Source: Ricordea florida (taxonomy: Eukaryota; Cnidaria; Anthozoa; Corallimorpharia; Ricordeidae). Taken from it: a DNA stretch of 64,000 bases. The stretch spans positions 1,204,501 through 1,268,500 of the forward strand of contig OX453287.1 in the NCBI GenBank assembly GCA_949710005.1, in the 5' to 3' direction. The notes below the pieces were generated by a model. That model was not told where the DNA came from and ran no database searches. It worked only from the letters and a program-made list of their open reading frames with translations. This document shows, in pieces, positions 11,033 to 49,718 of the stretch (positions are counted from its first letter, which is position 1; every line of letters starts with the position of its first letter). Position numbers and translations under genes: made by a program.

Positions 11033-11290
11033 AGTAGTATGTAAGCGGGTTTATAAGTAGATTTTTAGCTTATTTTTAAATTTTGACTGGAAAATCTCTG
11101 TCCTTTTTTTAGCTTACGGTTTTTTTAGCTTATTTTTTAAATTTGACAGAAAAATCTCTGTCCTTTTTAGCTTACGGGTTATTTTAAATTTGTCAGAGAT
11201 TTATCAGAAAACTAAACAGAGATTTTTTCAGATTATAAAATAAAAATGATATTTAAAAGATTAGAAAAATACCCATAGAAAGTAATTATG
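11033..11290. repeat. Element A left terminal inverted repeat
   Basis: Matches the reverse complement of about 26812-27074 with small indels near the inner end. It contains two AGCTTA..AAATTTGAC..AAATCTCTGTCC repeats. The inner edge reaches the ATG of the SAP/zinc gene. Confidence 0.93.
11242..11249 (+). promoter_or_regulatory. AAAATTGA-like box in left TIR
   Basis: AAAAATGA followed by TATTTAAAAGA, 38 nt upstream of the SAP/zinc ATG. It differs by one base from the AAAATTGATATTTAAAAAG block found in element B. Confidence 0.5.
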
Positions 11291-11779
11291 GATCAATTAA
11301 ATAATTTATGTTTGTATGAACTAAAAAGAATTGCAAGAGAGTTAAAAACGAAAGGAAGATCAAAAATGGGTAGAATGGATTTAATTAATGAGTTTAAAAA
11401 ATATAAAGAGGAGGAGATTATTGATTTAATTGAAAAAGTTACTACTACTACTAGCGATTATATTTGTATTCATGGAAAAATTAAATATTTTTGCAAAGAA
11501 TGCGGTGGATCGCAAATATGTGAACATGATAGAATTAAGTATGCTTGTAAAAAATGTAAAGGATCAATGTATTGTATGCATAATAAGCAAAAACAAAAGT
11601 GTAAAGAATGTGGTGGATCACAAATATGCATACATAATAAACAAAAACAACAATGTAAAGAATGTGGAGGATCACAAATATGCGAACACATGAAACAAAA
11701 AGCTTCTTGTAAGGAGTGTCGTATAAAATTAATTTATGATTTAAGGATTAGGAAAAATTGTAAAATAAAATGGAAATAA
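11288..11779 (+). CDS. SAP-like plus zinc-knuckle repeat protein (element A)
   Basis: 163 aa. The N-terminus (residues about 1-45, MDQLNNLCLYELKRIARELK) has a SAP/Rho-N-like helix-extended-helix pattern, a DNA-binding fold. It is followed by five repeats of the form C-x2-H-x3-K-x2-C-K-x-C-G-G-S (ICIHGKIKYFCKECGGS and variants), each able to supply four metal ligands. I recall similar CKECGGS repeats in large algal viruses. The ATG lies at the inner edge of the TIR, so transcription probably starts in the TIR. The 3' end overlaps the next gene by 10 nt. The homologue in element B has four full repeats. Role unknown; terminal-repeat or DNA binding is plausible. Confidence 0.85.
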   Translation: MDQLNNLCLYELKRIARELKTKGRSKMGRMDLINEFKKYKEEEIIDLIEKVTTTTSDYICIHGKIKYFCKECGGSQICEHDRIKYACKKCKGSMYCMHNKQKQKCKECGGSQICIHNKQKQQCKECGGSQICEHMKQKASCKECRIKLIYDLRIRKNCKIKWK

Positions 11780-12330
11780 TAGTAAAAGAAAAATATAGTG
11801 GAAAAACTTCTATGAGTTTTGAATATTATAATGAAAAAAAACTTGGTGTTAATGATTTTTTAGATTCAATTAAGGAAGATTTATTAAAACATATATCAAA
11901 TATTAGAGGTTTTATTGATGAAAATTATGAATATTATAACGATTTTGGGTATGATGAAGATTCCGAAGGGGTTGAATTTGGAATTTGGCATGATGATAAT
12001 GAAGAGTATTTTTATTTTTCTATTTTTGGTATAATGGGTTTATATTTAGATGGTATATCTAATAATGAGTTTGTTAGTGATTTAATATATTATGCTAATA
12101 GAGAAAAAGATGATAAGATGAAATATAATATTAATAATTTTATTATTGATTCAATTTGGATTTCTATAAATGTAAATGCTGATAAGTTGAAACATAAACA
12201 TAAATTTTATAAAAAATTATATGACGAATTAATGCCTATAGCATGGCATCCAAGTAGGTATTTAGATTGGTGTATTGGTGTTGAGGAATTAAGGTTTTTG
12301 GAAGAAGAGGTATTTGGTGAAGAAGATTGA
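11770..12330 (+). CDS. Uncharacterised acidic protein with AWHPSRYLDWC motif (element A)
   Basis: 186 aa, rich in Tyr, Asp and Glu. The conserved C-terminal block YDELMPIAWHPSRYLDWCI is followed by ELRFLEEEV. The same block closes the 176-aa homologue of element B, while the rest has diverged strongly. I recall WHPSR..WC motifs at the C-termini of uncharacterised giant-virus proteins, but cannot name a family. The start overlaps the end of the SAP/zinc gene, so the two may share a transcript. The 3' end faces a hairpin at 12332-12361 shared with the convergent next gene. Function unknown. Confidence 0.85.
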   Translation: MEIIVKEKYSGKTSMSFEYYNEKKLGVNDFLDSIKEDLLKHISNIRGFIDENYEYYNDFGYDEDSEGVEFGIWHDDNEEYFYFSIFGIMGLYLDGISNNEFVSDLIYYANREKDDKMKYNINNFIIDSIWISINVNADKLKHKHKFYKKLYDELMPIAWHPSRYLDWCIGVEELRFLEEEVFGEED

Positions 12331-12331
12331 T

Positions 12332-12361
12332 GTTATATAACCCAATAAATGGTTACATAAC
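12332..12361. terminator. 3' hairpin between convergent genes (element A)
   Basis: GTTATATAACC, 8-nt loop, GGTTACATAAC. It lies in the 37-bp gap between two convergent stop codons and can fold on either strand. Likely a bidirectional transcript-end signal. Confidence 0.75.
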
Positions 12362-12367
12362 AAAAAT

Positions 12368-12994
12368 TTATTTAAATCTTAAACTAAAAGTTACAGATTC
12401 TCCTTTTAGATCAAACTTTTTCCAATCAGAGTCTAAAATGGTTAAATCAAAGTGATTAATCAAGTTATCATATTTTCTAATTGGAATAGATGGATAATCT
12501 TTTGATGGAATGTTTGCTAGCAATTGGGATGGTTGTATTTTTACAACTCCATTTTTACCTTTATTAGTGTATGACATTCTATTATCAACTATGCTGCATA
12601 AAAGTCTCAAAGGTTCTTTTATAGTTATATCTATTTGACTTATTTTAAATAAAACCCCTGGCAGCCCTAAAGAATTTTGCAAACCCTGGCTAAATTTAAT
12701 GTTAAATGTTTTATTGTTGATTATGTAAGCAAAATTATCTCCGATAATCATTGTTATATTTTTACCCTTTTCGCTGAGATCAATTAATATTTTTATATCA
12801 TTTATGGAATATGTTCCTGGATTAAATATTACTAAAGGTTTATCTTGTTCATCAGTTATTTTTTCTTGATTCTTTAAAGTTATTAGTCTTTTTGTTTTAA
12901 TATTACAATCTAAAAGTTGTAATTCACTAACATATTTCATTGGAGGGTCTAAATAAACCCTAGTTTCTGAATTATACATTGTAATGCTAAACAT
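12368..12994 (-). CDS. Putative minor virion protein, 208 aa (element A)
   Basis: The protein is beta-rich without TM segments or a signal peptide. Conserved blocks shared with the 211-aa homologue in element B are SITMYNSETRVYLDPPMK, QLLDCNIKTKRLI, PGTYSI, KEPLRLLCSIVDNRMSY, LLANIPSKDYPSIPI and the C-terminal NHFDLTILDSDWKKFDLKG ending in TFSLRF. The PGxYxI and D.G..xTFxLxF patterns resemble a recurring Polinton virion-protein family (possible penton or spike), but that is inference. A TCTAAA box lies 21 nt upstream of the ATG. Confidence 0.8.
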   Translation of the reverse strand: MFSITMYNSETRVYLDPPMKYVSELQLLDCNIKTKRLITLKNQEKITDEQDKPLVIFNPGTYSINDIKILIDLSEKGKNITMIIGDNFAYIINNKTFNIKFSQGLQNSLGLPGVLFKISQIDITIKEPLRLLCSIVDNRMSYTNKGKNGVVKIQPSQLLANIPSKDYPSIPIRKYDNLINHFDLTILDSDWKKFDLKGESVTFSLRFK

Positions 12995-13015
12995 TTTTCA
13001 TTTAGAAGGTATATG

Positions 13016-13021
13016 TTTAGA
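13016..13021 (-). promoter_or_regulatory. TCTAAA box for the 208-aa gene
   Basis: Reads AATCTAAAC on the minus strand, 21 nt before the ATG at 12994. Confidence 0.6.
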
Positions 13022-13028
13022 TTATTTT

Positions 13029-14627
13029 TTATCGAAATAAAAACCAAGATAATAATCCTCCAGCAAATATTAAAACAATAAGAGTATTTTGATGAGAAGA
13101 TGTTTCTATATTACTAACTTTATCTGTTTTGTTTGATTCATCACTATTTTTTAATTTAGGATTCCTTGGTTGAGTATTAGTATTTAATAAAACCTTTGAT
13201 GTTCCTAAACTATGAGTTATTCCAACATTTTTTGTTCCAACATTTATTGAATTATTTACCCCAAATTTCATATCTTCTGTTGCTATTTTCAGATTATTAT
13301 TGTATCCAATAACGCTTTCTGTATTTATAATTAAATTGCTTGGCATCAATAAAACATCAGGAGCTATAGCCAAATCAAGCCGTACTTTTGATTCTTGAAC
13401 CGCCATTTGATATCTTTGATTTGAATTTGCGATATCATTTTCAATAACAGAGCTTTCAAATAAATCTATAAATTCTTGCTGAGTTTCAAATGCTCTTCCC
13501 CCATTACCAATAATTGAATTCCTAGTATTAACTTGGGCTCCCAAAACACAATAAACAAAAGCTTCAACCGATCTATTTATTCTTCCTAATCCAGCATTTG
13601 TTAATCCATATCCAGATTCTGGTATAAACCATGCATATTGAAAATCAACAAAATAATCATTTCGAAGCATAGATATTAAATTCCCATCTATTTTTTTACC
13701 CCCATCATCGGAAAATCTATTTGAACCGCTTGGCCAAATATTTGCATCAGGATCGTAGCTCCTTATAATTCTGACATCTTGATTTCCACCACCTATCGCT
13801 TGCCCACTAGCGCTTCCAGGAACACTTCCTGGTGGTACGTATCCTTTTCCATAATCAATGAATACATCTCCAACACCGTGATTTGCACCCCCTTTCCATC
13901 TAAAATCAGCCAAAGGTTTATTTAATCCTCTATAATCTTGATTATTGCTTAAGCCAAATTCTGCGCATAAACGATTATAAGCATTTTTGTTGTATGGATT
14001 ATTTTTTAAAGAAAAAGTTTGTTCGCCGGGTAATGGTACAGATAATTCATATAATATTCTTCTTATTGTAAAGTAAATGTGAAATATAAAAAAACTTCTA
14101 ATAACTTTTGGGTAATTTAAACTATCATTTAAACTTACACCGCATCCTGATGTTGCACACCAAACCGCCATGTTTAATTGCTGAGGCCAGTGATTAATAT
14201 TTGGTTTATTCAACCAAGCTCTAGCTTCTTTACCGCTAGTAAGTCCTACAGTCTGATTTTTAAATACATTTTTCATGGGGGAAATGAAGTTGTCTTTATC
14301 TGAAACATATATATTTAAAATAGTTAACATTTTTGTTACATTTTTTGCAGATTCATCGAATTTAATACCGGGTATTGGATATGTTTTGTTTGTAGATGAT
14401 AAACTTTCTGGAAAGGAACTATTTTCTAACCCTAAATCTTTCCATAATAATGTTTTCAAATTAGAAGGAAGATCATCGGTCCATGTTTTTCCAGAAGGAT
14501 CATCATAAGACATTACAGTCATTCCATTAACTTTCCATTTAATATATCCACCATACGAATCATTCACAAATGTAAATTTATTGAGGTTAGCGTTTGGGTA
14601 TCGGGTTTTGAAATCGTCTAATAACAT
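13029..14627 (-). CDS. Large tail-anchored virion-type protein, 532 aa (element A)
   Basis: A long, soluble-looking chain with one C-terminal membrane segment (LIVLIFAGGLLSWFLF) followed by R and stop, so probably tail-anchored. Strongly conserved blocks with the 537-aa homologue of element B include YPKVIRSFFIFHIYFTIRRI, FVDFQYAWFIPESGYGLTNA, GLGRINRSVEAFVYCVLGAQ and LMPSNLIINTESVIGYNN. I do not recognise the family. It sits between the hydrophobic 199-aa gene and the 208-aa gene in both elements, within the virion-side block, and has a TCTAAA box 30 nt upstream. It may be a membrane-associated structural or entry protein; no direct evidence. Confidence 0.85.
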   Translation of the reverse strand: MLLDDFKTRYPNANLNKFTFVNDSYGGYIKWKVNGMTVMSYDDPSGKTWTDDLPSNLKTLLWKDLGLENSSFPESLSSTNKTYPIPGIKFDESAKNVTKMLTILNIYVSDKDNFISPMKNVFKNQTVGLTSGKEARAWLNKPNINHWPQQLNMAVWCATSGCGVSLNDSLNYPKVIRSFFIFHIYFTIRRILYELSVPLPGEQTFSLKNNPYNKNAYNRLCAEFGLSNNQDYRGLNKPLADFRWKGGANHGVGDVFIDYGKGYVPPGSVPGSASGQAIGGGNQDVRIIRSYDPDANIWPSGSNRFSDDGGKKIDGNLISMLRNDYFVDFQYAWFIPESGYGLTNAGLGRINRSVEAFVYCVLGAQVNTRNSIIGNGGRAFETQQEFIDLFESSVIENDIANSNQRYQMAVQESKVRLDLAIAPDVLLMPSNLIINTESVIGYNNNLKIATEDMKFGVNNSINVGTKNVGITHSLGTSKVLLNTNTQPRNPKLKNSDESNKTDKVSNIETSSHQNTLIVLIFAGGLLSWFLFR

Positions 14628-14657
14628 CTTATTCTTTGTGTTTCAAATAAACCGTTC

Positions 14658-14663
14658 TTTAGA
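14658..14663 (-). promoter_or_regulatory. TCTAAA box for the 532-aa gene
   Basis: Minus-strand AATCTAAAG, 30 nt before the ATG; the leader ends GAATAAGATG as in element B. Confidence 0.6.
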
Positions 14664-14745
14664 TTAAGAATAAGATGTCAATTAATTTCTTTTCTAATTC
14701 CTGCAAAACAATTGAAACCAACTTCAGTTTTCTCATATGAAATTT

Positions 14746-15345
14746 TTAATGTCCTTTCCCTCCGGTAAGTTCTTTTAATAGATCTTCGCGCACTTCCCTC
14801 CTTATCATGGACATATCCAAGTTTTTTTCTGCTTTTTCTCTAAATTTTTGTCGTATTTCAAGTTTTAGTTTTTGAAACTTTTCCAACTCTGCTAAAATTA
14901 TAGAAAATTCTTGATCGGATATAACATTATCTTTCAAAGCTTTTGAAACTAAATCGTTAATTGTGTTTAATTTTGATTTTGCAATTGCAGCGGTTTGTTC
15001 GTGTTTACTAACTTTATTTGAAAGTTTTTTAGAAGCAATACCAAATCCAACCGATAACCCACCAAAAAAACCACCTACAACACCCAAAGGCACACCGACA
15101 ATAGCACCAAAACCCGTGAGAGAAGTTCCTAAACCGCTTGCTGATAGAATAACTGAAATCAAACCACCAGAAACACTAATTTTTGTACATATTCCTCTAG
15201 CCCTATTATATTTTTTCCTTACTTCTTCGTAATGTTTAATTTCTTTCTCGAGATTTTGTAATACTTCGCTTGATTTTTGTAGTCTGAAATTAATAGGATC
15301 TGGATTATTAGGTAATACAGGGTAAATTCTATTGTATTCATCCAT
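14746..15345 (-). CDS. Glycine-rich hydrophobic hairpin protein, 199 aa (element A)
   Basis: Residues about 20-50 form a charged coiled coil (SSEVLQNLEKEIKHYEEVRK). A Gly/Ala/Val-rich hydrophobic stretch follows (about 57-105, containing GLGTSLTGFGAIVGVPLGVV) that could insert as a membrane hairpin. Then comes a basic helix, the block LVSKALKDNVISDQEFSIIL, and a charged tail. I recall this architecture from cnidarian Polinton loci; its function is unknown. Leader contains a TCTAAA box 28 nt upstream of the ATG. Confidence 0.85.
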   Translation of the reverse strand: MDEYNRIYPVLPNNPDPINFRLQKSSEVLQNLEKEIKHYEEVRKKYNRARGICTKISVSGGLISVILSASGLGTSLTGFGAIVGVPLGVVGGFFGGLSVGFGIASKKLSNKVSKHEQTAAIAKSKLNTINDLVSKALKDNVISDQEFSIILAELEKFQKLKLEIRQKFREKAEKNLDMSMIRREVREDLLKELTGGKGH

Positions 15346-15373
15346 ATTGTATTTTACTACTCAACATGATATC

Positions 15374-15379
15374 TTTAGA
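15374..15379 (-). promoter_or_regulatory. TCTAAA box for the 199-aa gene
   Basis: Minus-strand GGTCTAAAGATATCATG, 28 nt before the ATG at 15345. The element B copy is TTTAAAGATATCATG, slightly degenerate. Confidence 0.55.
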
Positions 15380-15380
15380 C

Positions 15381-16607
15381 CTACTTTCTCTTCTTTTTTA
15401 TACTTTCCACAAAATATAGAACCACAGCCATTATCAATAACCAAGCATTTTCGCCTAAAAATCCAATAACCTGCCCAGCTGTTTTGAATAGAAAGCTAAC
15501 TATTGCGCCAACCATTCCTGGCAATATTTCACCTAATTTTTTACCAAGAGTTTTCAAACCATTACCAACTCCCCTGCCTAATGTTGATAAACCCCTTGAA
15601 AGATTAGAAACGATAACACCAATGATAACACCTACTGCAGCAATAACAGAAAAAACTGTAAAACCATACTTTTTGAATATATACTTTAGTCGCTCTCGTA
15701 ATGGCAAATTTTTAAGTATTTCATCTTTTCGTCCATCTATAGCTGATAATTGTTCTTCGATTGAAATTGTTTTATTTCTAATCTGTTCTCTTAATTTATC
15801 AACCTCAGATTTTAATCTCTCATTGCTTTGTTCTAACTTTGATAAATTAGATTTTCCCTTCTTATATTTGTCTATTTCTTCTTTGTATAATTTTGTTTCA
15901 TCCAAAAGTTTCTCTGCTTGTATTTTTAATTCTATATTCTGTTTAACGGTTTGATCGAAAAGACTTTTATTTTCTGCTTTTTGCACCTGTTGTTTCTCAA
16001 TGAATTGGCGTAGTTCTTTTTCTCTTTCGTCATATCGACTAATCTCCTCCGTTCTTGTTGCTAAAAGTGAATCTATTCCTTGTACTGCAGAAAGTAATTC
16101 ATTATGTTTTTCTTTTTCTTTATTAAATTGTGATATGGCATCATTATATTTATCTAACATTGTTTCATAATCGGCACCTAGAGCTTTTCTCATTGTTTTT
16201 GGTAAATCTTCAAGCATAAGAACTTTATCTTTAGTAAGTATGACATGTGGTGCAGAACCCTTCCTATTACTAAATTCTGCTAATATACTACCATCTTCTC
16301 CATATGTTACATTAAATGTCGCATCATTAGGATTGAAAGTTGGTAAATAGCGTTTGAGTTCCTGACCTGCTTCTCGCCTTCTGTCATATTTCTCATCTCT
16401 TTCTACAATATTTGGCGTTTTTTTCTCTTCATCTTTTATTTCCCATTGAAGTCGTTTTCTTTCCGCCATATATTCTGAATAACCAAGATATCCTTGATCA
16501 ATAGATGTGGATGTGGATGTGTTTGGGCTTTGGTAAAATGTGTCATCCCCATCATCATTATCATCATCTTTTGGTAAATTTTCTAATGGTATTTCTTCTT
16601 CTTCCAT
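15381..16607 (-). CDS. Long coiled-coil protein with C-terminal membrane domain, 408 aa (element A)
   Basis: The frame opens at 16721, but the start MEEEEIPLENL at 16607 is preferred: it aligns with MAEEIPMEDF of element B and puts the TCTAAA box at the usual 30 nt. Layout: acidic N-terminus, about 150 residues of coiled coil (Glu/Lys-rich, for example KQNIELKIQAEKLL), then a conserved C-terminal domain with three hydrophobic segments (GFTVFSVIAAVGVIIGVIV; GEILPGMVGAIVSFLF; ENAWLLIMAVVLYF) separated by a Gly/Lys-rich loop, ending in a basic tail. Likely a virion membrane or tape-like protein; function not established. Confidence 0.85.
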   Translation of the reverse strand: MEEEEIPLENLPKDDDNDDGDDTFYQSPNTSTSTSIDQGYLGYSEYMAERKRLQWEIKDEEKKTPNIVERDEKYDRRREAGQELKRYLPTFNPNDATFNVTYGEDGSILAEFSNRKGSAPHVILTKDKVLMLEDLPKTMRKALGADYETMLDKYNDAISQFNKEKEKHNELLSAVQGIDSLLATRTEEISRYDEREKELRQFIEKQQVQKAENKSLFDQTVKQNIELKIQAEKLLDETKLYKEEIDKYKKGKSNLSKLEQSNERLKSEVDKLREQIRNKTISIEEQLSAIDGRKDEILKNLPLRERLKYIFKKYGFTVFSVIAAVGVIIGVIVSNLSRGLSTLGRGVGNGLKTLGKKLGEILPGMVGAIVSFLFKTAGQVIGFLGENAWLLIMAVVLYFVESIKKKRK

Positions 16608-16637
16608 GATTTTTTTTTTACTCATCAGTAAGAAATC

Positions 16638-16643
16638 TTTAGA
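16638..16643 (-). promoter_or_regulatory. TCTAAA box and leader of the coiled-coil gene
   Basis: Minus-strand AATCTAAAGA is followed by TTTCTTACTGATGAGTAAAA, a leader also found before two genes in element B. The box is 30 nt before the chosen ATG at 16607. Confidence 0.65.
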
Positions 16644-16659
16644 TTGAAAAATAAAAGTA

Positions 16660-16667
16660 AAACTTGA
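16660..16667 (+). promoter_or_regulatory. Variant AAAATTGA box for the 270-aa cargo gene
   Basis: AAACTTGA followed by an AT-rich block, 33 nt before the ATG at 16701. One base off the canonical form. Confidence 0.35.
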
Positions 16668-16700
16668 TTTAAATTTTAAAAATATATATATAAAAATAAA

Positions 16701-17513
16701 ATGATGAACGAAACTACACAATTAATAGATGTTAATAATTATATTCCTAAAGTAAGCATGATCTTTTCTAAACCAATTGTTGGTGAAATTCCTGGAACAA
16801 AACCAAAGGTTGAATTCAAAAGAATTAAAATTTTTACAAAAAATGATGATGGAACAGAAGGAGAACTTGTTATTCCAACCGGTAATTTATATTCTTTTGG
16901 TGTTTCTACAAACACAAATCAACAAACAGGTGCAATTTCAGGATATGTGTTTCCATTATGTTTATGGAGTGGAAGCAGTCCAACACCCGAAGAAGAAAAA
17001 TGGATTGATTTATTCAATGACATAGTTGACAATTGCATTGATCATTTGCTTATTAATAGAGCAAAAATTGGCAAATTTGAGTTGGAAAGAAATGAGCTTG
17101 AAAAACAAAAAGGGGGTTTAAATCCTCTATATTGGAAGTTGGAAAAATCTTCAATGGATAGAGTTCCAGATAGAGGTCCAACTTTATATGCAAAATTAAT
17201 TTGGGATAAAAAACAAGACCAAATTTTAACCAGATTTTATAACTCTAAAAATGATAAGTTAATTGATCCATTAAAATTATTAAATAAAGGTTGTCGAGTT
17301 GAAGAAAGTGTAATAAAAATTGAATCAATATTTATTGGTTCTTGTATTGCACTTCAAGTAAAACTTTATGAAGCAGTTATAGAACCAAACAAAGAAATGA
17401 AAAGATTAACTAAACTTAGATGCTTAACTATTTCTGATAGTAAATCTGCTGCTGAAGAAATGGAAAAATCTGAATATGAAGAAGAAGATTCTGATGTTGA
17501 GAGTCTCATGTAA
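16701..17513 (+). CDS. DUF2738-like giant-virus-type protein, 270 aa (element A cargo)
   Basis: Read opposite to the virion genes. Blocks I associate with the NCLDV family DUF2738: IPTGNLYSFGVSTNT, GYVFPLCLW, LNPLYWKLEK, GPTLYAKLIWDK and ESIFIGSCIALQVKLYEAVI. The C-terminus is acidic (SEYEEEDSDVESLM), as in many single-stranded DNA-binding proteins. The family name is from memory; a DNA-binding role is inference. The gene lies between the coiled-coil and 130-aa genes, exactly where element B has an unrelated 90-aa gene. Two ATGs open the frame (16701 and 16704). Confidence 0.8.
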   Translation: MMNETTQLIDVNNYIPKVSMIFSKPIVGEIPGTKPKVEFKRIKIFTKNDDGTEGELVIPTGNLYSFGVSTNTNQQTGAISGYVFPLCLWSGSSPTPEEEKWIDLFNDIVDNCIDHLLINRAKIGKFELERNELEKQKGGLNPLYWKLEKSSMDRVPDRGPTLYAKLIWDKKQDQILTRFYNSKNDKLIDPLKLLNKGCRVEESVIKIESIFIGSCIALQVKLYEAVIEPNKEMKRLTKLRCLTISDSKSAAEEMEKSEYEEEDSDVESLM

Positions 17514-17532
17514 ATCAAAATAATAAATATAC

Positions 17533-17570
17533 TTATGTTATATAACCAAATTACTGGTTACATAACATAT
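17533..17570. terminator. 3' hairpin between convergent genes (element A)
   Basis: TTATGTTATATAACC, 8-nt loop, GGTTACATAACATAT, between the stop of the 270-aa gene and the stop of the 130-aa gene. Confidence 0.75.
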
Positions 17571-17576
17571 AATAAT

Positions 17577-17969
17577 TTATAAAAATTTACTTACCGCATA
17601 ACCTAAACCTAACATTCCAGCTCCAACATATACCATTTCTCCTGTTTTTTGTTCATCACTTGGTTTGTAATAATCAGAGAATTTTGGCTCTTGCATTTGC
17701 CAGTACAATTCAAAAGCTTGGTTTGTAGTCGAAATATTTTTTGATGCTTGATATTTTTCATCTTTTTTCTTCATTTTCCAATCAATCATTTTTTGTCTTT
17801 TTTCCTGATATTCTGCATAATCTTTTTGATATTTTTCTAATGCTTTATCGTGTCGTATTTTTTCTGCATCTACATTATGCCCTGAAAGACTTTTTGCAAG
17901 ATAATTTCCACCAACAAATGCCGTTGCATTCAATATAGCCCCACCAATCATCATCGCTATTGCTGCCAT
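17577..17969 (-). CDS. Small two-membrane-segment protein, 130 aa (element A)
   Basis: A hydrophobic N-terminus (MAAIAMMIGGAILNATAFVG), a long charged central helix (ALEKYQKDYAEYQEKRQKM), the conserved SDYYKPSDEQKTGEM block and a hydrophobic C-terminus (VYVGAGMLGLGYAVSKFL). The ATG lies 1 nt after the stop of the 72-aa gene, with no promoter-like box of its own, so the pair is probably bicistronic. I recall the family from other cnidarian Polintons; function unknown, probably a virion membrane protein. Confidence 0.85.
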   Translation of the reverse strand: MAAIAMMIGGAILNATAFVGGNYLAKSLSGHNVDAEKIRHDKALEKYQKDYAEYQEKRQKMIDWKMKKKDEKYQASKNISTTNQAFELYWQMQEPKFSDYYKPSDEQKTGEMVYVGAGMLGLGYAVSKFL

Positions 17970-17970
17970 T

Positions 17971-22375: not shown

Positions 22376-22376
22376 T

Positions 22377-42088: not shown

Positions 42089-42093
42089 CAAAG

Positions 42094-42645: not shown

Positions 42646-42650
42646 ACAGA

Positions 42651-42656
42651 TCTAAA
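42651..42656 (+). promoter_or_regulatory. TCTAAA box for the 132-aa gene
   Basis: CAGATCTAAAAACTTAT, 26 nt before the ATG at 42683. Confidence 0.65.
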
Positions 42657-42682
42657 AACTTATCTGTAGCATCTAAATAATA

Positions 42683-43081: not shown

Positions 43082-43094
43082 AGTTATTTAAAAG

Positions 43095-43115
43095 TTTCTT
43101 ACTGATGAGTAAAAA
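43095..43115 (+). promoter_or_regulatory. Shared leader before the 72-aa gene
   Basis: TTTCTTACTGATGAGTAAAA precedes the ATG at 43118 and recurs at 44140-44160 before the coiled-coil gene. A degenerate TTTAAAAG lies just upstream in place of TCTAAA. Confidence 0.6.
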
Positions 43116-43117
43116 TT

Positions 43118-43336
43118 ATGTCAACAGAAAACAAACTTGTGAAAACTGTAACTGATTCAGCCGTGCTCATCGGATTAAGTGCGGGGGTAGGGTATGTGGC
43201 AAAAAAGATGATGAAAGAATCATTTTTGAGTGATCCGTCCATGAGTATTACAAATTACGCAAAATGGGTAGCGGTATTATCCGGAAGTATGTATCTAAAA
43301 ACATATTTAGAGGATCAAAAGATTTTACCAAAATAA
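43118..43336 (+). CDS. Small membrane protein, 72 aa (element B)
   Basis: Differs from the element A copy at only a few residues (for example SVGYLA/GVGYVA region and NDPSSS/SDPSMS). Same two hydrophobic segments. Stop codon 1 nt before the next ATG. Confidence 0.85.
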   Translation: MSTENKLVKTVTDSAVLIGLSAGVGYVAKKMMKESFLSDPSMSITNYAKWVAVLSGSMYLKTYLEDQKILPK

Positions 43337-43337
43337 A

Positions 43338-43730
43338 ATGGCATCAGTAGCAATGATGATTGGTGGGGCCTTAGTTAATGCAGCAGCATTTACCGGAGGA
43401 AATATTCTTACAAGATTTATATTCGGGAAAAAAGCGGATACGGAAAAAATACGGCACGATAAGGCAATGGAAAAATATCAAAGAGATTACGCAGAATATC
43501 AGGAAAAAAGACAAAAAATGCTTGATTGGAAAATGAAGAAAAAAGAGGAAAAATTTCAAGCATCAAAAAATATTTCGGCTACAAATCAGGCTTTTGCGCT
43601 GTACGCTCAAATGGCGGAACCTAAATTCTCTGATTATTATAAACCAAGCGAAGAACAAAAGACCGGAGAAATGATATATGTTGGCGCAGGAATGTTAGGA
43701 TTGGGGTATGCGGTAAGTAAATTATTATAA
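43338..43730 (+). CDS. Small two-membrane-segment protein, 130 aa (element B)
   Basis: Same length and layout as in element A (MASVAMMIGGALVNAAAFTG ... GAGMLGLGYAVSKLL), with the shared SDYYKPSEEQKTGEM block. Translation probably depends on the preceding 72-aa gene. Confidence 0.85.
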   Translation: MASVAMMIGGALVNAAAFTGGNILTRFIFGKKADTEKIRHDKAMEKYQRDYAEYQEKRQKMLDWKMKKKEEKFQASKNISATNQAFALYAQMAEPKFSDYYKPSEEQKTGEMIYVGAGMLGLGYAVSKLL

Positions 43731-43737
43731 ATTATTA

Positions 43738-43778
43738 TTATATAACTTGAAATACAGAAATTACAATAAGTTATATAA
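43738..43778. terminator. 3' hairpin between convergent genes (element B)
   Basis: TTATATAACTT, 19-nt loop, AAGTTATATAA, between the stops of the 130-aa and 90-aa genes. Perfect 11-bp stem. Confidence 0.75.
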
Positions 43779-43787
43779 CATAAGGCA

Positions 43788-44060
43788 TTATTTTTTATTA
43801 AATTTCGAAGCTACTTTTCCCAACATTTCTTCATCACTAATTCTATTATCATTTTCTATTCCATATTTTTCAGTTACTTTTGCTCTCATTTGTCTTTTAT
43901 ATTCCAAAAAATCTCTATCTGGATCATGTTCTTTTTGCATTTGACTTAATACTTTACAAACATCTTGCGGGCTCATATTTATTCCAAATTTTTTAGCGTA
44001 ATTTACTAAATCCAAATTACTAATTGTATTAGTATAATATTTTTGTTCTTCGTTACTCAT
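43788..44060 (-). CDS. Unrecognised 90-aa protein (element B cargo)
   Basis: Soluble, charged and mostly helical by eye (NLDLVNYAKKFGINMSPQDV; DRDFLEYKRQMRAKVTEKYG). Not related to the 270-aa gene in the same slot of element A. An exact AAAATTGA lies 39 nt upstream. Family unknown. Confidence 0.75.
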   Translation of the reverse strand: MSNEEQKYYTNTISNLDLVNYAKKFGINMSPQDVCKVLSQMQKEHDPDRDFLEYKRQMRAKVTEKYGIENDNRISDEEMLGKVASKFNKK

Positions 44061-44099
44061 TTTATTTTACTTTTATTTTATATTTTTTCTTTTTAAATC

Positions 44100-44107
44100 T
44101 CAATTTT
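44100..44107 (-). promoter_or_regulatory. AAAATTGA box for the 90-aa gene
   Basis: Minus-strand AAAATTGAGATTTAAAAAG, 39 nt before the ATG at 44060. Confidence 0.65.
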
Positions 44108-44131
44108 GATTTTATTACCGACTCAAGGTAA

Positions 44132-44160
44132 TCTAAAGATTTCTTACTGATGAGTAAAAA
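44132..44160 (+). promoter_or_regulatory. TCTAAA box and shared leader of the coiled-coil gene
   Basis: AATCTAAAGA at 44130-44139 is followed by TTTCTTACTGATGAGTAAAA. The box core (44132-44137) is 26 nt before the ATG. Confidence 0.65.
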
Positions 44161-44163
44161 ATC

Positions 44164-45339
44164 ATGGCAGAAGAAATACCAATGGAAGATTTTTCAAGAG
44201 ATAATGACGATGCCGACGATAATAATTGGGATTGGGATGATGCCTTTTACCAAAACGCAAACACATCAACATCCCTTGAACAAGATTATCATGGTTATGA
44301 TGATTATAACCAATCAAGAGACAGGGCTCAATGGGATCAGACTGCGGAAGATGTGGGCCGGGATAGTTTTAGAGATGAAAGAAGGGTAGAAGCAGCCCAA
44401 TATCTAAAACGGTATTTTCCTGAATTCGATCCGAAGAACGCATCATTTAACGTTGAATTTGGGAAAGATGGTAGTATAATCGGGACATTAAGTGGTAGGA
44501 CAAATGCCGTGCCGCATATCATACTTGATAAAGATGGAAATCTTAGGGTCGAAGATTTACCAAAAGGAATGAGAAAAGAACTGGGCGCAGATTATGAAAC
44601 AATGTTGAATATTTTAAATGAAGAGAAAGAAAAACATAATGAATTACAATCCGCAGTGCAGGGAATAGACGCGCTTTTGGCAACACGAACGGAGGAGATT
44701 GAAGGATATGTGAAGAGAGAAAAAGAGCTTCGATTATTCATTGAGAAACAACAGGAAAAACAGGCGGAGAATAAATCCCTTTTTGACCAAACCGTAAAAC
44801 AGAACATAGAATTAAAAACACAAGCGGAGAAAATTTTGGAAGAAGTAAAATTGTACAAAGAGGAGATTGATAAATATAAGAAAGATAAGTTAAATTTACA
44901 AAAGCTAGAAAAGAGCAGGGATCGTCTAAAAACAGAGAACGACAAATTGAAAGAGCAAATAGGTGAACAATTGTCAGACATTGAGAGCAGAAAAGATGAA
45001 ATACTTAAAAATTTACCATTAAGAGAGCGAATAAAGTACATCTTCAAAAAGTATGGATTTACGGTCTTTGCTATTTTAAGTGCGGTGGGGGTCGTCATTG
45101 GTGTTATAGTTTCTAATCTTTCAAAGGGTTTATCTGCATTGGGTAGGGGTGTTGGTAATGGATTAAAAACTTTAGGTAAAAAACTGGGCGAAATATTACC
45201 AGGAATGGTTGGTGCAATAGTTAGCTTTCTTTTCAAAACCGCGGGCCAGGTTATTGGATTTTTGGGGGAGAATGCTTGGCTTTTAATAATGGCGGTGGTT
45301 CTATATTTTGTGGAAAGTATAAAAAAGAAGAGAAAGTAA
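44164..45339 (+). CDS. Long coiled-coil protein with C-terminal membrane domain, 391 aa (element B)
   Basis: Acidic Asp/Asn-rich N-terminus, coiled coil from about residue 135 to 280, and the same C-terminal triple-hydrophobic domain as element A (GFTVFAILSAVGVVIGVIV, GEILPGMVGAIVSFLF, ENAWLLIMAVVLYF). The last about 110 residues are almost unchanged between elements while the coiled coil differs by indels. Function not known; a structural membrane protein is likely. Confidence 0.87.
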   Translation: MAEEIPMEDFSRDNDDADDNNWDWDDAFYQNANTSTSLEQDYHGYDDYNQSRDRAQWDQTAEDVGRDSFRDERRVEAAQYLKRYFPEFDPKNASFNVEFGKDGSIIGTLSGRTNAVPHIILDKDGNLRVEDLPKGMRKELGADYETMLNILNEEKEKHNELQSAVQGIDALLATRTEEIEGYVKREKELRLFIEKQQEKQAENKSLFDQTVKQNIELKTQAEKILEEVKLYKEEIDKYKKDKLNLQKLEKSRDRLKTENDKLKEQIGEQLSDIESRKDEILKNLPLRERIKYIFKKYGFTVFAILSAVGVVIGVIVSNLSKGLSALGRGVGNGLKTLGKKLGEILPGMVGAIVSFLFKTAGQVIGFLGENAWLLIMAVVLYFVESIKKKRK

Positions 45340-45377
45340 CAAATTTAAAGATATCATGCCGTTCAGTAAAATACAAT

Positions 45378-45992
45378 ATGGGAGAATACAATGGAATTTA
45401 TCCACAAATACCAAATAATAATTTTCAAACACCGGGTGGAGATGGCGCAATTAATTTCAGATTACAAAAATCGAGCGAAGTATTGCAAAATCTCGAGAAG
45501 GAAATTAAACATTACGAAGAAGTGAGGAAAAAATATAATAGAGCAAGAGGAATATGCACAAAAATTAGCGTTTCTGGCGGTTTTATTTCCGTTATCCTAT
45601 CCGCAAGCGGGCTTGGAACCTCTCTCACGGGTTTTGGTGCAATAGTCGGAGTTCCTTTGGGTGTGGTTGGTGGTGTTTTTGGAGGATTATCGGTTGGATT
45701 TGGAATAGCCTCAAAAAGTCTTTCCTCAAAAGTTAGTAAACACGAACAAACCGTTGCAATTGCGAAATCAAAATTAAACACCATTAACGATTTGGTTTCA
45801 AAAGCTTTGAAAAATAATGTCATATCCGATCAAGAATTTTCCATAATTTTGGCGGAATTGGAAAAGTTTCAAAAACTGAAACAAGAGGTTCGCCAAAAAT
45901 TCAGAAAAGATTCGGAAAAAAACTTCGACATGAGTATGATAAGGAAGAAAGTCCGAGAAGATCTGTTAAAAGAACTTACCGGAGGTCATTAA
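45378..45992 (+). CDS. Glycine-rich hydrophobic hairpin protein, 204 aa (element B)
   Basis: The frame is open from 45276, but MGEYNGIYPQIP at 45378 matches the element A start and follows the same GTAAAATACAATATG leader. Coiled coil, then GLGTSLTGFGAIVGVPLGVV hydrophobic region, then LVSKALKNNVISDQEFSIIL. An extra FQTPGGDGA insert lies near the start. Confidence 0.85.
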   Translation: MGEYNGIYPQIPNNNFQTPGGDGAINFRLQKSSEVLQNLEKEIKHYEEVRKKYNRARGICTKISVSGGFISVILSASGLGTSLTGFGAIVGVPLGVVGGVFGGLSVGFGIASKSLSSKVSKHEQTVAIAKSKLNTINDLVSKALKNNVISDQEFSIILAELEKFQKLKQEVRQKFRKDSEKNFDMSMIRKKVREDLLKELTGGH

Positions 45993-46067
45993 AATTTGTT
46001 TACGAGAAAACGGAAGTTGGTTGCAATTGTTTCGCCGGCATTAATTGATTTTACATCTTATTCTTAA

Positions 46068-46073
46068 TCTAAA
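46068..46073 (+). promoter_or_regulatory. TCTAAA box for the 537-aa gene
   Basis: TTAATCTAAAGATCAG, 30 nt before the ATG; the leader ends GAATAAGATG as in element A. Confidence 0.6.
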
Positions 46074-46103
46074 GATCAGAAAAATTGGAAAACAAAGAAT
46101 AAG

Positions 46104-47717
46104 ATGTTATTTAGCGATTTCAAAAACCGATACCCAAGGGCAAACCTTGAAAAATTTTCATTTGTGAATGACTCATTCGGGGGATATATCGAATGGAAAG
46201 TTAATGGAACAACAATTATGTCCGATGACGATCCTTCTGGAGAAACATGGACTGCAAATCTTTCCGATAATTTGAAAAAGTTGTTATGGGAAGATTTGGG
46301 TTTAGAAAATAAAGTAAAAGTAAGTTCATTTCCCCAAAGTTTAACATTTACAAAACAACCATATCCAATACCCGGAATTAAATTCAACGAATTTGCTCTT
46401 GATGTTACAAAATTATTAACCAATCTGAAAATATATGTTTCAGAAAAAGATAATTTCACAGCGACAATGAAGAATATTTTTAAAAATCAAACTGTGGGAT
46501 TTACCAGTGGAAAAGAAACTAGAGCCTGGTTAAGTAAACCAAATATTAATCAGTGGCCACAACAATTAAACATGGCAGTTTGGTGCGCATCGTCAGGATG
46601 CGGAGTAAGTTTAAGTGATATTTTTGGATACCCCAAAGTTATCAGAAGTTTTTTCGTATTTCACATTTACTTTACAATAAGAAGAATAATAGAGGAATTG
46701 AAGGTGTCATTACCAGGGGTAGAAACTTTTTCTTTGAAAAATAATTCGTACGACAAAAATGCTTATAATAGATTATGCGCAGAATTTGGGTTAAGCAATG
46801 ATCAAGATTATAAGGGCTGGAACAAACCTTTAGCGGATTTTAGATTCAAGGGCGGGGCAAACCATGGAGCTGGTGATATATTCATTGATTATGGGGGAGG
46901 ATATACAGACCATGATGCAGTTCCGGGAAGTGAAGCCGCGCAAGCAAAGGGCGGCGGATTTCAAAATGTGAGGGTCATAAGAAATTATGATACAGAAGCT
47001 AATATTTGGCCGAGCCGCGATCATAAATTTTACGACGATGGCGGAAGAAAAAATATGGGAAATTTAGTTTCAATGCTCCGAAATGATCATTTTGTTGATT
47101 TTCAATATGCTTGGTTTATACCAGAAACTGGTCATGGATTAACAAAGGCGGGATTGGGGAGAATAAATAGATCGATTGAAGCTTTTGTTTATTGCGTTTT
47201 GGGCGCACAAGTTAATACTAGAACTTCAATTGTTAGTAAAGGAGGTGGAGGTTTTGAAACTCAGCAAAACTTTATAAAATTATTTGAAAGTTCGGTGATT
47301 GAAAATGATGTGTCCCAATCAATTCAAAGATATCAAACGGCGGTTCAAGAATCAAAATCCCGACTTGATTTGGCCGTAGCTCCTGGTGTTTGGCTAATGC
47401 CGAGCAATTTAATTATAAATACGGAAAGCGTTATTGGATATAATAATGATTTGAAAAGGGTAACAGAAGATATGACTTTTGGGGTGAATAATTCAATAAA
47501 TGCGGGCACAAAAAATGTCGGAATAAGACATAGTTTGGGAGCAACAAAGGTTTTATTAAATACCGCCCCACAACCAGCAAAACCCAAACAAACTAAAGTT
47601 ATCGAAACAGAAAATGAGGAAGAAGAAATTAGCAATATTGAAACATCTTCTCATCAAAATAATCTTATTGTTTTAATAATTGGAGGAGGATTATTATCCT
47701 GGTTTTTATTCCGTTAA
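46104..47717 (+). CDS. Large tail-anchored virion-type protein, 537 aa (element B)
   Basis: Same blocks as element A (YPKVIRSFFVFHIYFTIRRI, FVDFQYAWFIPETGHGLTKA, LMPSNLIINTESVIGYNN) and the same C-terminal anchor (LIVLIIGGGLLSWFLF). The region after the Gly-rich loop (about residues 265-300) and the Glu-rich stretch before the anchor are the most divergent parts, as expected for exposed or linker segments. Confidence 0.85.
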   Translation: MLFSDFKNRYPRANLEKFSFVNDSFGGYIEWKVNGTTIMSDDDPSGETWTANLSDNLKKLLWEDLGLENKVKVSSFPQSLTFTKQPYPIPGIKFNEFALDVTKLLTNLKIYVSEKDNFTATMKNIFKNQTVGFTSGKETRAWLSKPNINQWPQQLNMAVWCASSGCGVSLSDIFGYPKVIRSFFVFHIYFTIRRIIEELKVSLPGVETFSLKNNSYDKNAYNRLCAEFGLSNDQDYKGWNKPLADFRFKGGANHGAGDIFIDYGGGYTDHDAVPGSEAAQAKGGGFQNVRVIRNYDTEANIWPSRDHKFYDDGGRKNMGNLVSMLRNDHFVDFQYAWFIPETGHGLTKAGLGRINRSIEAFVYCVLGAQVNTRTSIVSKGGGGFETQQNFIKLFESSVIENDVSQSIQRYQTAVQESKSRLDLAVAPGVWLMPSNLIINTESVIGYNNDLKRVTEDMTFGVNNSINAGTKNVGIRHSLGATKVLLNTAPQPAKPKQTKVIETENEEEEISNIETSSHQNNLIVLIIGGGLLSWFLFR

Positions 47718-47733
47718 TGTTTTGATTACGTAA

Positions 47734-47739
47734 TCTAAA
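47734..47739 (+). promoter_or_regulatory. TCTAAA box for the 211-aa gene
   Basis: GTAATCTAAAGGAG, 27 nt before the ATG at 47767. Confidence 0.6.
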
Positions 47740-47766
47740 GGAGAATATGGTGTAATCAAAACAAAA

Positions 47767-48402
47767 ATGCTCAGTATTACAATGTACGATTCAGAAACTA
47801 GAATTTATTTAGATCCGCCGCTGAAAAATCTTCGGGAGATACAACTCCTGGATTGTAATATACAAACCAAAAGATTGATTAATTTCAAGGAGGAACAGAA
47901 AATATTATATGGCAAAAATCAGAGCTTCATAATTGAGCCGGGCACATATACTATTCATGGTATTCAATCAATCTTTCTTAATAATGATCCTGGTTTGGAA
48001 AAAATAACAATAATTGAGACTGATACCATTGACTATCTTTATTCAAATAAGAACTCCAAAGTTATAATTACGAGAGGATTGTCAATTGGTTTAGGAGTTC
48101 CTATAGTTTTAAATCCTGGCAAATTATATCCCATAAATATTCAGTTTAAGGAGCCGTTGAGACTTATGTGTAGCATAGTGGATAATAGGTCGTCATATAT
48201 GAATATCACCAAATATGGAGAACTTGTAAAACTCGCGCCATCTAATTTACTAGCAAACATTCCTTCACAAGATTATCCGGCAATTCCAGTTCAAAAATAT
48301 GAAAGTCCCATAAACCACTTTGATTTAACCATCTTTGACAATGAATGGAAAAAACTTGATCTGAAGGGTTCACCCATAACTTTTAGTTTAAGATTTAGAT
48401 AA
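47767..48402 (+). CDS. Putative minor virion protein, 211 aa (element B)
   Basis: Conserved with the 208-aa protein in SITMYDSETRIYLDPPLK, QLLDCNIQTKRLI, KEPLRLMCSIVDNRSSYM, LLANIPSQDYPAIPV and the C-terminal HFDLTIFD...ITFSLRF. The central part (residues about 45-105) is much more divergent than the ends. Ends just before the hairpin at 48410-48439. Confidence 0.8.
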   Translation: MLSITMYDSETRIYLDPPLKNLREIQLLDCNIQTKRLINFKEEQKILYGKNQSFIIEPGTYTIHGIQSIFLNNDPGLEKITIIETDTIDYLYSNKNSKVIITRGLSIGLGVPIVLNPGKLYPINIQFKEPLRLMCSIVDNRSSYMNITKYGELVKLAPSNLLANIPSQDYPAIPVQKYESPINHFDLTIFDNEWKKLDLKGSPITFSLRFR

Positions 48403-48409
48403 ATTTTTT

Positions 48410-48439
48410 GTTATGTAACCAGTAATTGGGTTATATAAC
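48410..48439. terminator. 3' hairpin between convergent genes (element B)
   Basis: GTTATGTAACC, 8-nt loop, GGTTATATAAC: the element A hairpin (12332-12361) in the opposite orientation, conserved across the two elements. Confidence 0.78.
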
Positions 48440-48453
48440 ATAATTATTTATAA

Positions 48454-48984
48454 TTAATCTTCATTACCCCACACCTCTTCTTCCAAAAACTTTAACTCAT
48501 CAAATTCAATACACCAATCTAAATATCTAGATGGGTGCCAAGCAACAACCATTAGTTCATCATATAAAGATTCATAAATATTCTCTTTATAAAATATCTT
48601 ATATGGTTCAACCTCTATTTTTAAAGAAAAAGAATCATGAATAATTTTTTTTTTCATCTCACTCCCGTGCCAATATGTAAAAGTATTATCCATTGATTTT
48701 ATTAATTCTGAAACAAGCTCTTCATCAGTAAAATTTTGACAAAAACTAAAAACAAAAAAAATATCCTGTAATCCATAACAAATAGTACACCCAAAATCTT
48801 CATCTTTTTCATAACCTAGATTTCTTACAGATATTGTTCTTTTTTCACTCATAAAAAACCTATATTTTGGGATGTCTTCCATTAAATATTCCTTTAATAC
48901 AGTAATAAAAGTATATATATCTAATCTTTCTTCATTAATATATTCAATAGTAATATTTTCTTCTTCTGCATCTTTTCTATCCAT
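48454..48984 (-). CDS. Uncharacterised protein with AWHPSRYLDWC motif, 176 aa (element B)
   Basis: C-terminal YDELMVVAWHPSRYLDWCIE and KFLEEEVWG match element A. Upstream similarity is weak, limited to acidic and Tyr-rich segments. Unlike element A it does not overlap the SAP/zinc gene and has its own AAAATTGA box 39 nt upstream. Function unknown. Confidence 0.83.
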   Translation of the reverse strand: MDRKDAEEENITIEYINEERLDIYTFITVLKEYLMEDIPKYRFFMSEKRTISVRNLGYEKDEDFGCTICYGLQDIFFVFSFCQNFTDEELVSELIKSMDNTFTYWHGSEMKKKIIHDSFSLKIEVEPYKIFYKENIYESLYDELMVVAWHPSRYLDWCIEFDELKFLEEEVWGNED

Positions 48985-49023
48985 TTTTATGTTATTTTAT
49001 TATATGTTTTTTCTTTTTAAATA

Positions 49024-49031
49024 TCAATTTT
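49024..49031 (-). promoter_or_regulatory. AAAATTGA box for the 176-aa gene
   Basis: Minus-strand AAAATTGATATTTAAAAAG, 39 nt before the ATG: the same spacing as the 90-aa gene. Confidence 0.65.
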
Positions 49032-49032
49032 T

Positions 49033-49061
49033 GTTATGAAACCAAAATAGGGTTACATAAC
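49033..49061 (-). terminator. 3' hairpin of the SAP/zinc gene (element B)
   Basis: GTTATGAAACC ... GGTTACATAAC with one mismatch, 7 nt after the stop of the SAP/zinc gene and directly abutting the AAAATTGA box of the next gene. Confidence 0.65.
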
Positions 49062-49068
49062 ATAATTT

Positions 49069-49455
49069 TCAACATTCCTTACAATGATACTTTTGTTTAT
49101 TATGTTTGCATATTTGTGATCCGCCGCATTCTTTACAAAAACTTTTTTGCTTGTTATGAACACATATTTCTGAACCATCACATAATATGCAGTAAGACTT
49201 TCTTTTCCCATGAACGCATATTTGTGATCCACCGCATTCTTTGCAAGAATATTTTTTAATTCTATGTTCACAATAATAATAATAATTATACATTGAAATA
49301 GCTTTAAAAAATAACTTATCAACATCCTCATCTGGAAATTTTCCCAACTCATTAATTAAAACAGCTTTAGTCATTTTATGGCGTCCCTTAATGTTCAACT
49401 GCCTTGCAATAAATTTTAGTTGCGGAATATTCAAACTTTGTAATTTTTGATCCAT
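49069..49455 (-). CDS. SAP-like plus zinc-knuckle repeat protein, 128 aa (element B)
   Basis: The frame is open from 49473, but the ATG at 49455 (MDQKLQSLNIPQLKFIARQL) aligns with element A and sits just inside the TIR. SAP-like N-terminus, then four C-x2-H...C-x2-C units (ICVHGKRKSYCILCDGS, ICVHNKQKSFCKECGGS and others), ending KYHCKEC. One repeat fewer than element A and no basic tail. Confidence 0.85.
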   Translation of the reverse strand: MDQKLQSLNIPQLKFIARQLNIKGRHKMTKAVLINELGKFPDEDVDKLFFKAISMYNYYYYCEHRIKKYSCKECGGSQICVHGKRKSYCILCDGSEICVHNKQKSFCKECGGSQICKHNKQKYHCKEC

Positions 49456-49460
49456 CATAA

Positions 49461-49718
49461 TATTGTATTTCACTAATTTTTCTTTTAAGCCGTAATTATT
49501 TTCAAATTTTTTCGCAGAGAGACCCTCCCAAACCTAAAACGTGTTTATGAATTTTGCGGAGACTTGAAACTCCCAAACCTAAAACGTACTTATGAACTTA
49601 GCAGACCCTCCCAAACCTAAAACGTACTTATGAGCCTTAAGCTAAAAAAGGACAGAGAATTTCAGTCAAATTTGAAAATAACCTAAAAACGTACTTATAA
49701 ACACGCTTACATAGTAGT
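49461..49718. repeat. Element B right terminal inverted repeat
   Basis: Ends CACGCTTACATAGTAGT and contains three copies of the ACCTAAAACGTACTTATGAA unit against eight on the left. Confidence 0.92.

Follow-up and report, generated by a model that had tools for sequence, protein, structure and literature searches.

Putative two-class promoter boxes of nucleocytovirus type in Polintons of the corallimorpharian Ricordea florida

Two Polintons with a conserved box code

The stretch of 64,000 nucleotides (nt) analysed here, referred to as the window (positions 1,204,501 to 1,268,500 of contig OX453287.1, assembly GCA_949710005.1 of Ricordea florida), contains two integrated Polintons, A (11033..27074) and B (33817..49718). 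In both elements and in their relatives in the same genome a core box T[C/T]TAAA begins approximately 27-38 nt ahead of most gene starts, and some early genes, namely the cargo genes and those next to the terminal inverted repeats (TIRs), are preceded by the general form AAAA[A/T]TGA followed by TTTAAA. The best reading of this pattern appears to be that the Polintons express their genes in two classes, after the manner of nucleocytoviruses, a reading to which we assign a probability of about 0.5 on the basis of sequence comparisons. To our knowledge it is unsettled how the virion genes of animal Polintons are expressed. With a box code that is conserved and shows features of nucleocytoviruses, this question, including a switching by giant viruses, becomes directly testable, and the code suggests that virophage-like relations may extend into animals.

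The late box within the window

The first-pass annotation of this DNA had placed TCTAAA 21-30 nt upstream of eleven virion-side genes, namely 208, 532, 199, 414, 138 and the packaging ATPase of A and the ATPase, 138, 414, 532 and 208 of B. All eleven possess the hexamer and the gap is right for ten of them, but ahead of gene 414 of A the first ATG follows after 12 nt. Another ATG, 18 nt downstream of the first, gives this gene a gap of 30 nt, and its position is matched in 13 of 17 relatives. The hexamers are located on the minus strand in A, at 13016..13021 (208, with a second copy at 13001-13006), 14658..14663 (532), 15374..15379 (199), 16638..16643 (414), 18692..18697 (138) and 19890..19895 (ATPase), and on the plus strand in B, at 41430..41435 (ATPase), 42651..42656 (138, with a second copy at 42672-42677), 44132..44137 (414), 46068..46073 (532) and 47734..47739 (208). 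TCTAAA was found only ahead of virion-side genes. At the box position of both major capsid protein (MCP) genes (A, 21183..21188, minus strand; B, 40150..40155, plus strand) and of gene 199 of B (45344..45349, plus strand) it is replaced by TTTAAA.

Box starts were counted at -20 to -45 of the ATG of 28 genes, which form 15 ortholog groups, and compared with 500 dinucleotide shuffles. TCTAAA was detected ahead of 11 genes and 7 ortholog groups (shuffles: mean 0.7, maximum 4), a count that leaves out gene 414 of A (-18) and includes gene 130 of B (-44). T[CT]TAAA precedes 20 of the 28 genes (mean 3.7, maximum 9) and TATAAA two (shuffled mean 2.7). At the same distance from 1,124 other ATGs within the elements TCTAAA occurred 15 times and T[CT]TAAA 45 times; among 40 open reading frames (ORFs) outside the elements each form occurred twice. 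The TCTAAA ahead of gene 130 of B (43294-43299) was rejected as a box, as it falls in the reading frame of the preceding small ORF and gene 130 is boxless in relatives.

A de novo motif search with shuffled controls, of the kind suggested together with the annotation for a larger set of Polintons, recovered motifs of the type [GA]AT[CT]TAAA from A alone and from B alone. At width 10 the motif-free model search yielded GAT[CT]TAAA-type motifs with scores of 35.1 in A (shuffled maximum 26.0) and 36.5 in B (28.1), neither of which was reached by any of 40 shuffles; with a width of 8, B exceeded its shuffles only narrowly (22.8 versus 22.3). The tests in A and B are not fully independent, since the elements are homologous to each other. 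Based on the motif-free search and on the TTTAAA before both MCP genes and gene 199 of B, T[C/T]TAAA is the better form of the box than TCTAAA.

The motifs could alternatively represent chance words of an A+T-rich region, given that A and B are homologous and have an A+T content of approximately 65-70% each. Moreover, in the plain ortholog-group count the best chance hexamer of the shuffles (average 7.2) equals TCTAAA (observed 7), and it is thus the box as named, together with the motif model and the data from relatives, that carries the significance. The shuffles, the internal ATGs, the relatives, in which the 5' flanks have diverged, and a second lineage of capsid genes (see below) all argue against chance, which we regard as refuted for the late box and as partly alive for the strict early motif AAAATTGA; as an account of the boxes as a whole it is hardly credible.

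The late box in relatives across the genome

Relatives were obtained from 30 loci of the same genome that carry a DUF2738 gene (the best 30 of 150 matches), together with their neighbouring late genes, which mostly share a protein identity of 46-88% with those of the window. Upstream regions more than 80% alike were removed to give non-redundant sets. T[CT]TAAAGA precedes gene 138 in 11 of 11, gene 199 in 5 of 5 and gene 414 in 7 of 11 non-redundant relatives (shuffled maxima 1, 1 and 2, respectively), and the shorter T[CT]TAAA is present before gene 414 in 9 of 11. For these three genes the positional enrichment in a larger set, the second check suggested at the outset, is thus well above the shuffles. 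Gene 130 was judged to lack a box, T[CT]TAAA being found in just 1 of its 11 non-redundant upstream regions.

The information content in the relatives reaches 1.83-1.88 bits in the box columns, 0.43-0.78 bits in the 5' flank and 1.36-1.45 bits on the 3' side, where the conservation may partly reflect shared descent or an additional signal. Furthermore, capsid genes of a second lineage, which share 66-70% identity with the query P0090 (itself 60% identical to the window capsid), were preceded by TTTAAA at a distance of 29-37 nt in all 20 loci used, which were hand-picked from 100 listed and not filtered for redundancy.

These data also bear on the possibility that the boxes are read in the nucleus by the host RNA polymerase II, either as a variant TATA box or via an element-encoded substitute of the TATA factor, so that a giant virus would be unnecessary. 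Such a virus-encoded substitute is used by some late promoters of herpesviruses, TTTAAA is able to act as a weak TATA box, and the integrase of the elements needs nuclear DNA. The second position is occupied by T in approximately half of the late boxes and in those early boxes that were tested. However, position 2 of the TNTAAAG sites is C in 14 cases and T in 11 but never A or G, and TATAAA is absent from all 27 upstream regions of genes 138, 199 and 414 in the relatives. A TATA box is spaced approximately 30 nt from the RNA start, which would here place this start at about the ATG, and no homolog of a TATA factor was recognised. Taken together with the gene 3' ends described below, reading by the host polymerase appears possible but doubtful.

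The early box

The annotation had further described AAAATTGA upstream of two reverse-strand genes of B, at a distance of exactly 39 nt from the ATG, and both instances were confirmed (44100-44107 and 49024-49031). The variants it reported before the terminal genes of A are likewise present, in the form of AAAAATGA 38 and 40 nt ahead of both TIR-side genes. These four boxes lie 38-40 nt ahead of the ATG and TTTAAA starts 10 nt after the start of each box. The composite of AAAAATGA and TTTAAA precedes gene x163 of A (11242..11257, plus strand, within the TIR) and the putative polymerase gene of A (26849..26864, minus strand), the two being copies of each other through TIR identity. The composite of AAAATTGA and TTTAAA precedes a 90-aa cargo ORF (44092..44107) and gene x186 (49016..49031) of B, both on the minus strand, and the two AAAATTGA boxes are similar enough for a common origin to be possible. 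Over the whole window AAAATTGA shows no excess (8 found, 16.5 expected), and a window-wide enrichment was rejected.

An early-like box, AAAACTTGA with TTTAAA, is located ahead of the cargo gene of A (16659..16673, plus strand). In 22 non-redundant relatives of this DUF2738 gene AAA[AT][AT]TGA was detected upstream in 15 (shuffled mean 2.4, maximum 7) and TTTAAA in 18 (mean 5.6, maximum 12), and TCTAAA in none.

Hairpins and gene 3' ends

Palindromic hairpins had been proposed to sit at gene 3' ends. This holds for the ends of late gene runs at three places but not for gene ends generally. The pattern TGTTATRTAACC-N8-GGTTATATAACA occurs exactly in the window only after gene 208 of A (12331..12362, minus strand), after gene 130 of A (17536..17567, minus strand) and after gene 208 of B (48409..48440, plus strand), each time closing a late run; the junction between gene 130 and the cargo of B has it in a degenerate form only. 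Genome-wide 1,849 exact matches (881 + 968) were counted and none in the control. The variable pair is A-U at 44 sites (88 matches) and G-U in the remaining 1,761.

Where DUF2738 faces gene 130 the hairpin arms are present in 25 of 26 loci. A stem of at least 10 forms on the late strand, that of gene 130, in 23 of the 26, compared with 4 for the strand of DUF2738. The hairpin pairs better on the late strand because the G-U pair turns into C-A on the opposite one. These arms are absent from the four loci with DUF2738 and gene 130 in tandem, in which other stems of 9-13 bp overlap the putative cargo promoter. In convergent loci such stems were found at 1 of 25 ends of gene 138 and at 0 of 21 ends of gene 414. 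Covariation is hardly informative for the hairpin, as its sequence shows almost no variation; scores as high as the observed one arose in 41 of 500 shuffles.

AATAAA within 60 nt past the stop codon was detected for gene 138 in 0 of 29 cases, for gene 130 in 2/30, for 414 in 4/29, for 176 in 6/27 and for DUF2738 in 9/30, compared with 9.7% of random stretches. Its scarcity is best for genes 138 and 130 and is not true of every gene. The ends of these two genes speak against a processing by the host as expected with RNA polymerase II, and the DUF2738 ends are in favour of it.

The cargo gene of A and the age of the nucleocytovirus features

The cargo gene of A (16701..17513, plus strand) encodes a DUF2738 protein (PF10927; 177.1 bits, cut-off 23), a nucleocytovirus-type single-stranded DNA-binding protein (SSB). 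It occupies the same slot in all 30 loci. According to its structural model (mean pLDDT, the predicted local distance difference test, 72.7), 95 viral models match at an E-value of 0.001 or better, and every named row among the 50 of these that were listed belongs to a nucleocytovirus, including P31K of iridoviruses and CP312R of African swine fever virus (ASFV). Among solved structures CP312R of ASFV, for which ssDNA binding is described, matched best (E 6e-7), and SSBs of phages matched only at 0.015 and above. The slot between genes 414 and 130 appears as a place of swappable cargo, holding DUF2738 in A (16626-17576) and an unrelated ORF of 90 aa in B (43731-44163).

The only named DUF2738 relatives among 120 homologs listed are from the coral Stylophora pistillata. 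In a midpoint-rooted tree of 100 rows (69 of these 120 homologs, the 30 loci and the window copy) the window gene groups with genes of its own genome and of other assemblies, and the metagenome rows fall within a group to which Stylophora and the four tandem-type loci belong as well. Due to this nesting and the midpoint rooting the tree sets no direction of gene exchange. PMC7642931 gives 21 and 12 DUF2738 copies for two Hydra species and 0 or 1 for five other cnidarians; the Hydra copies are probably Polinton cargo, too.

Models of the late transcription factor VLTF3 matched four places in this genome, none in the window, and none in 14 control genomes. One of them lies in a diverged Polinton (C12:7224400-7244100), in which a homolog of gene 532 (61%) adjoins the VLTF3-like gene on one side, and homologs of the capsid (54%) and the integrase (69-74%) lie on the opposite side. 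The piece scores 30.5 against PF04947 (cut-off 25), and three of four homologs scanned likewise exceed this cut-off. A fold search gave no match at an E-value of 0.001 or better, with named late factors in 8 of the first 12 rows. This copy is decayed across frames; 99 homologs on other contigs are up to 93% identical, many of them with approximately 186 aa. In the same Polinton an exact AAAATTGA is located within 75 nt upstream of the x186 homolog and likewise of a SLOG-type gene. The C12 element contains a SLOG/DprA-type gene (L043:5162-5539, above the Pfam cut-offs), fibre-like ORFs and a different polymerase.

The three other VLTF3 matches (C15, C8 and C6) do not match the profile of Polinton-linked VLTF3. 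That on C15 lies approximately 2 kb from remains of a Polinton polymerase; beside those on C8 and C6 no capsid, ATPase or polymerase homolog was detected, with a weak integrase match at C8. We do not claim these three as fossils of giant viruses. According to PMC5294986, the anemone Exaiptasia has a lone VLTF3 gene and Hydra has giant-virus inserts.

Nucleocytovirus genes do enter cnidarian genomes (PMC5294986), and boxes, hairpins and SSB might be an old heritage or the result of gene exchange between Polintons and nucleocytoviruses, the elements now being silent relics or serving another use with no current helper. The decay of the VLTF3-like copy on C12 is in line with this, as is the frame of the putative polymerase of B, which is broken into two ORFs (34337-36019 and 36281-38908). 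However, boxes and hairpins were kept where the flanks drifted, and open frames without internal stop in 144 of 150 DUF2738 matches and 96 of 100 second-lineage capsid matches scored suggest a recent function. A purely historical origin seems rather improbable.

The proposed two-class programme and its reader

In the preferred reading, that of a nucleocytovirus-type programme, the virion genes would start downstream of T[C/T]TAAA, approximately 30 nt ahead of the ATG, some early genes (TIR-side, cargo) would start downstream of AAAA[A/T]TGA and TTTAAA, and the late gene runs would close with the hairpin, the pairing of which is best on the late strand. Based on position and conservation, the boxes may act as promoters and the hairpins as RNA 3' signals. 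Since TATA forms are absent and the boxes lie close to the ATG, their reader would more likely be a nucleocytovirus-type transcription apparatus than the host TATA-binding protein with RNA polymerase II. No RNA polymerase gene was recognised in A or B, and the apparatus would therefore be supplied from outside, most likely by a nucleocytovirus in the same cell as has been proposed for mavirus and Cafeteria roenbergensis virus (CroV). This step fits both the lack of a recognised transcription enzyme and the virophage precedent, and it is the least certain one; a dependence on a live helper giant virus appears plausible.

The first-pass annotation had inferred a possible transcription by a co-infecting giant virus and not by RNA polymerase II. 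This is partly supported by the non-TATA boxes of two classes, the late-strand hairpins, the few AATAAA after genes 138, 130 and 414, the SSB gene and the VLTF3-like gene. Several observations weigh against it. A helper giant virus with the same promoters was not found in scans of viral contigs, genome contigs and a phage collection, and the VLTF3-bearing Polinton on C12 has neither a late box before its genes nor the hairpin arms. Genes 130, 176 and the integrase are without a clear box. Strict AAAATTGA is a minority form, seen in 3 of the 22 DUF2738 relatives (reached by 6 of 200 shuffles) and in 1 of 10 non-redundant x186 relatives (41 of 200), in which the early box is also weak in the form AAAA[AT]TGA (3 of 10; 5 of 200), 4 of 19 stretches without an open start having been left out. 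The hairpins are not general, only 3 of 28 gene ends in the window reaching the 95% level of random positions, and DUF2738 ends with AATAAA above the random rate. Finally, those boxes that read TTTAAA may be host-type promoters.

As a tentative and rather speculative extension, the animal germline may hold a very large stock of virophage-like Polintons, the capsid genes of which would be switched on only by the late machinery of a nucleocytovirus in the same cell. Such a system would have three parts and could serve as an inducible antiviral defence, and a sister lineage would formerly have had a VLTF3-like factor of its own.

Comparison with known systems

A TCTA motif common to CroV and mavirus, as given in the annotation, is stated in PMC8547959, and AAAATTGA as the early motif of mimivirus in PMC11998528. 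The mimivirus hairpin is described at 16 gene ends of Sputnik (PMC6723459), and the type of endogenous mavirus-like elements (EMALEs) that has the CroV late motif is the one reactivated by CroV (PMC10945749). The elements of R. florida resemble the mavirus/EMALE virophages and CroV in a TCTA-type motif upstream of genes, an integrase, the provirus state and a programme that would be shared with a giant virus, but differ in the animal host, in that no helper is known, in TTTAAA as half of the late boxes and in the extension of the box to TYTAAA(G/A). The annotation also attributed the early signal to CroV, which reportedly shares AAAATTGA with mimivirus.

With Sputnik and mimivirus they have in common the AAAATTGA early motif and hairpin end signals. 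In contrast, AAAATTGA is here a minority form, the hairpins close gene runs rather than most genes, and A and B are integrated, while no integration machinery is ascribed to Sputnik in the available parts of the literature. TIRs, rve integrase, packaging ATPase and a putative capsid gene are shared with the animal Polintons/Mavericks and adintoviruses, for which PMC11071308 names cnidarian hosts (Stylophora coral adintovirus and Hydra polinton 1); a promoter code, VLTF3, hairpins and DUF2738 cargo are without mention in the available part of that paper. The predicted DUF2738 fold is that of the nucleocytovirus SSBs (CP312R of ASFV, P31K of iridoviruses), but the gene is located on an integrated element of 16 kb and its product shares 11-25% identity with the named structures and models ranked first.

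In the open-licence literature searched, as far as its text was available (PMC8547959, PMC6723459, PMC11998528, PMC11071308, PMC7642931, PMC5294986, PMC11464507, PMC10945749 and PMC5636890), no report of promoter boxes or VLTF3 in animal Polintons was found. Viral contigs were scanned with single sequences and with alignments of the capsid and of DUF2738; neither these scans nor two of genome contigs and a search of a phage collection revealed any relatives of the elements.

General features of the elements

A and B lie in opposite orientations in the window. Both have TIRs of 100% identity (136 + 106 nt in A, 149 nt in B) and a flanking duplication of the target, GCCCT at 11028-11032/27075-27079 for A and CAAAT at 33812-33816/49719-49723 for B. 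These duplications comprise 5 bp, those of Polintons usually 6 bp. In agreement with an assignment to the Polintons/Mavericks, the integrase (21401..22375, plus strand; rve, 36.4 bits, cut-off 32.6) and the packaging ATPase (19239..19865, minus strand; Pox_A32, 45.2 bits, cut-off 22.8) of A are both above the Pfam cut-off. As to the double jelly-roll capsid of this group, the MCP of A (19909..21153, minus strand) matches Capsid_N below the cut-off (16.9 bits, cut-off 24) and has 562 homologs, some of them with PF16903. No maturation protease was among the above-cut-off Pfam matches of the 14 ORFs of A scanned.

The protein of 1,479 aa encoded by A (22377..26816, minus strand) is called PolB, the protein-primed polymerase of Polintons, due to its position in the element and to motifs which by eye resemble those of a polymerase; neither Pfam nor PHROGs nor PDB gave a match to a polymerase model.

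In this genome (537.8 Mb, 48 contigs) the family seems to be present in extremely large numbers. A first look yielded 5,041 candidates for the ATPase (150 scored), 6,136 for the second capsid lineage (100 scored) and 918 for DUF2738 (150 scored), candidates not being equal to confirmed copies.

Gene 176 begins 5 nt past the stop codon of the ATPase in A (19233-19239) as well as in B (42088-42094) and lacks a separate box; the two genes may therefore share a transcript, or translation may reinitiate. The TIR-side proteins (11288-11779; 49069-49458) contain CxH...CxxC repeats, five in A and four in B. That of A shows a weak N-terminal match to Rho_N below the cut-off, and the putative polymerase of A matches Rho_N above it.

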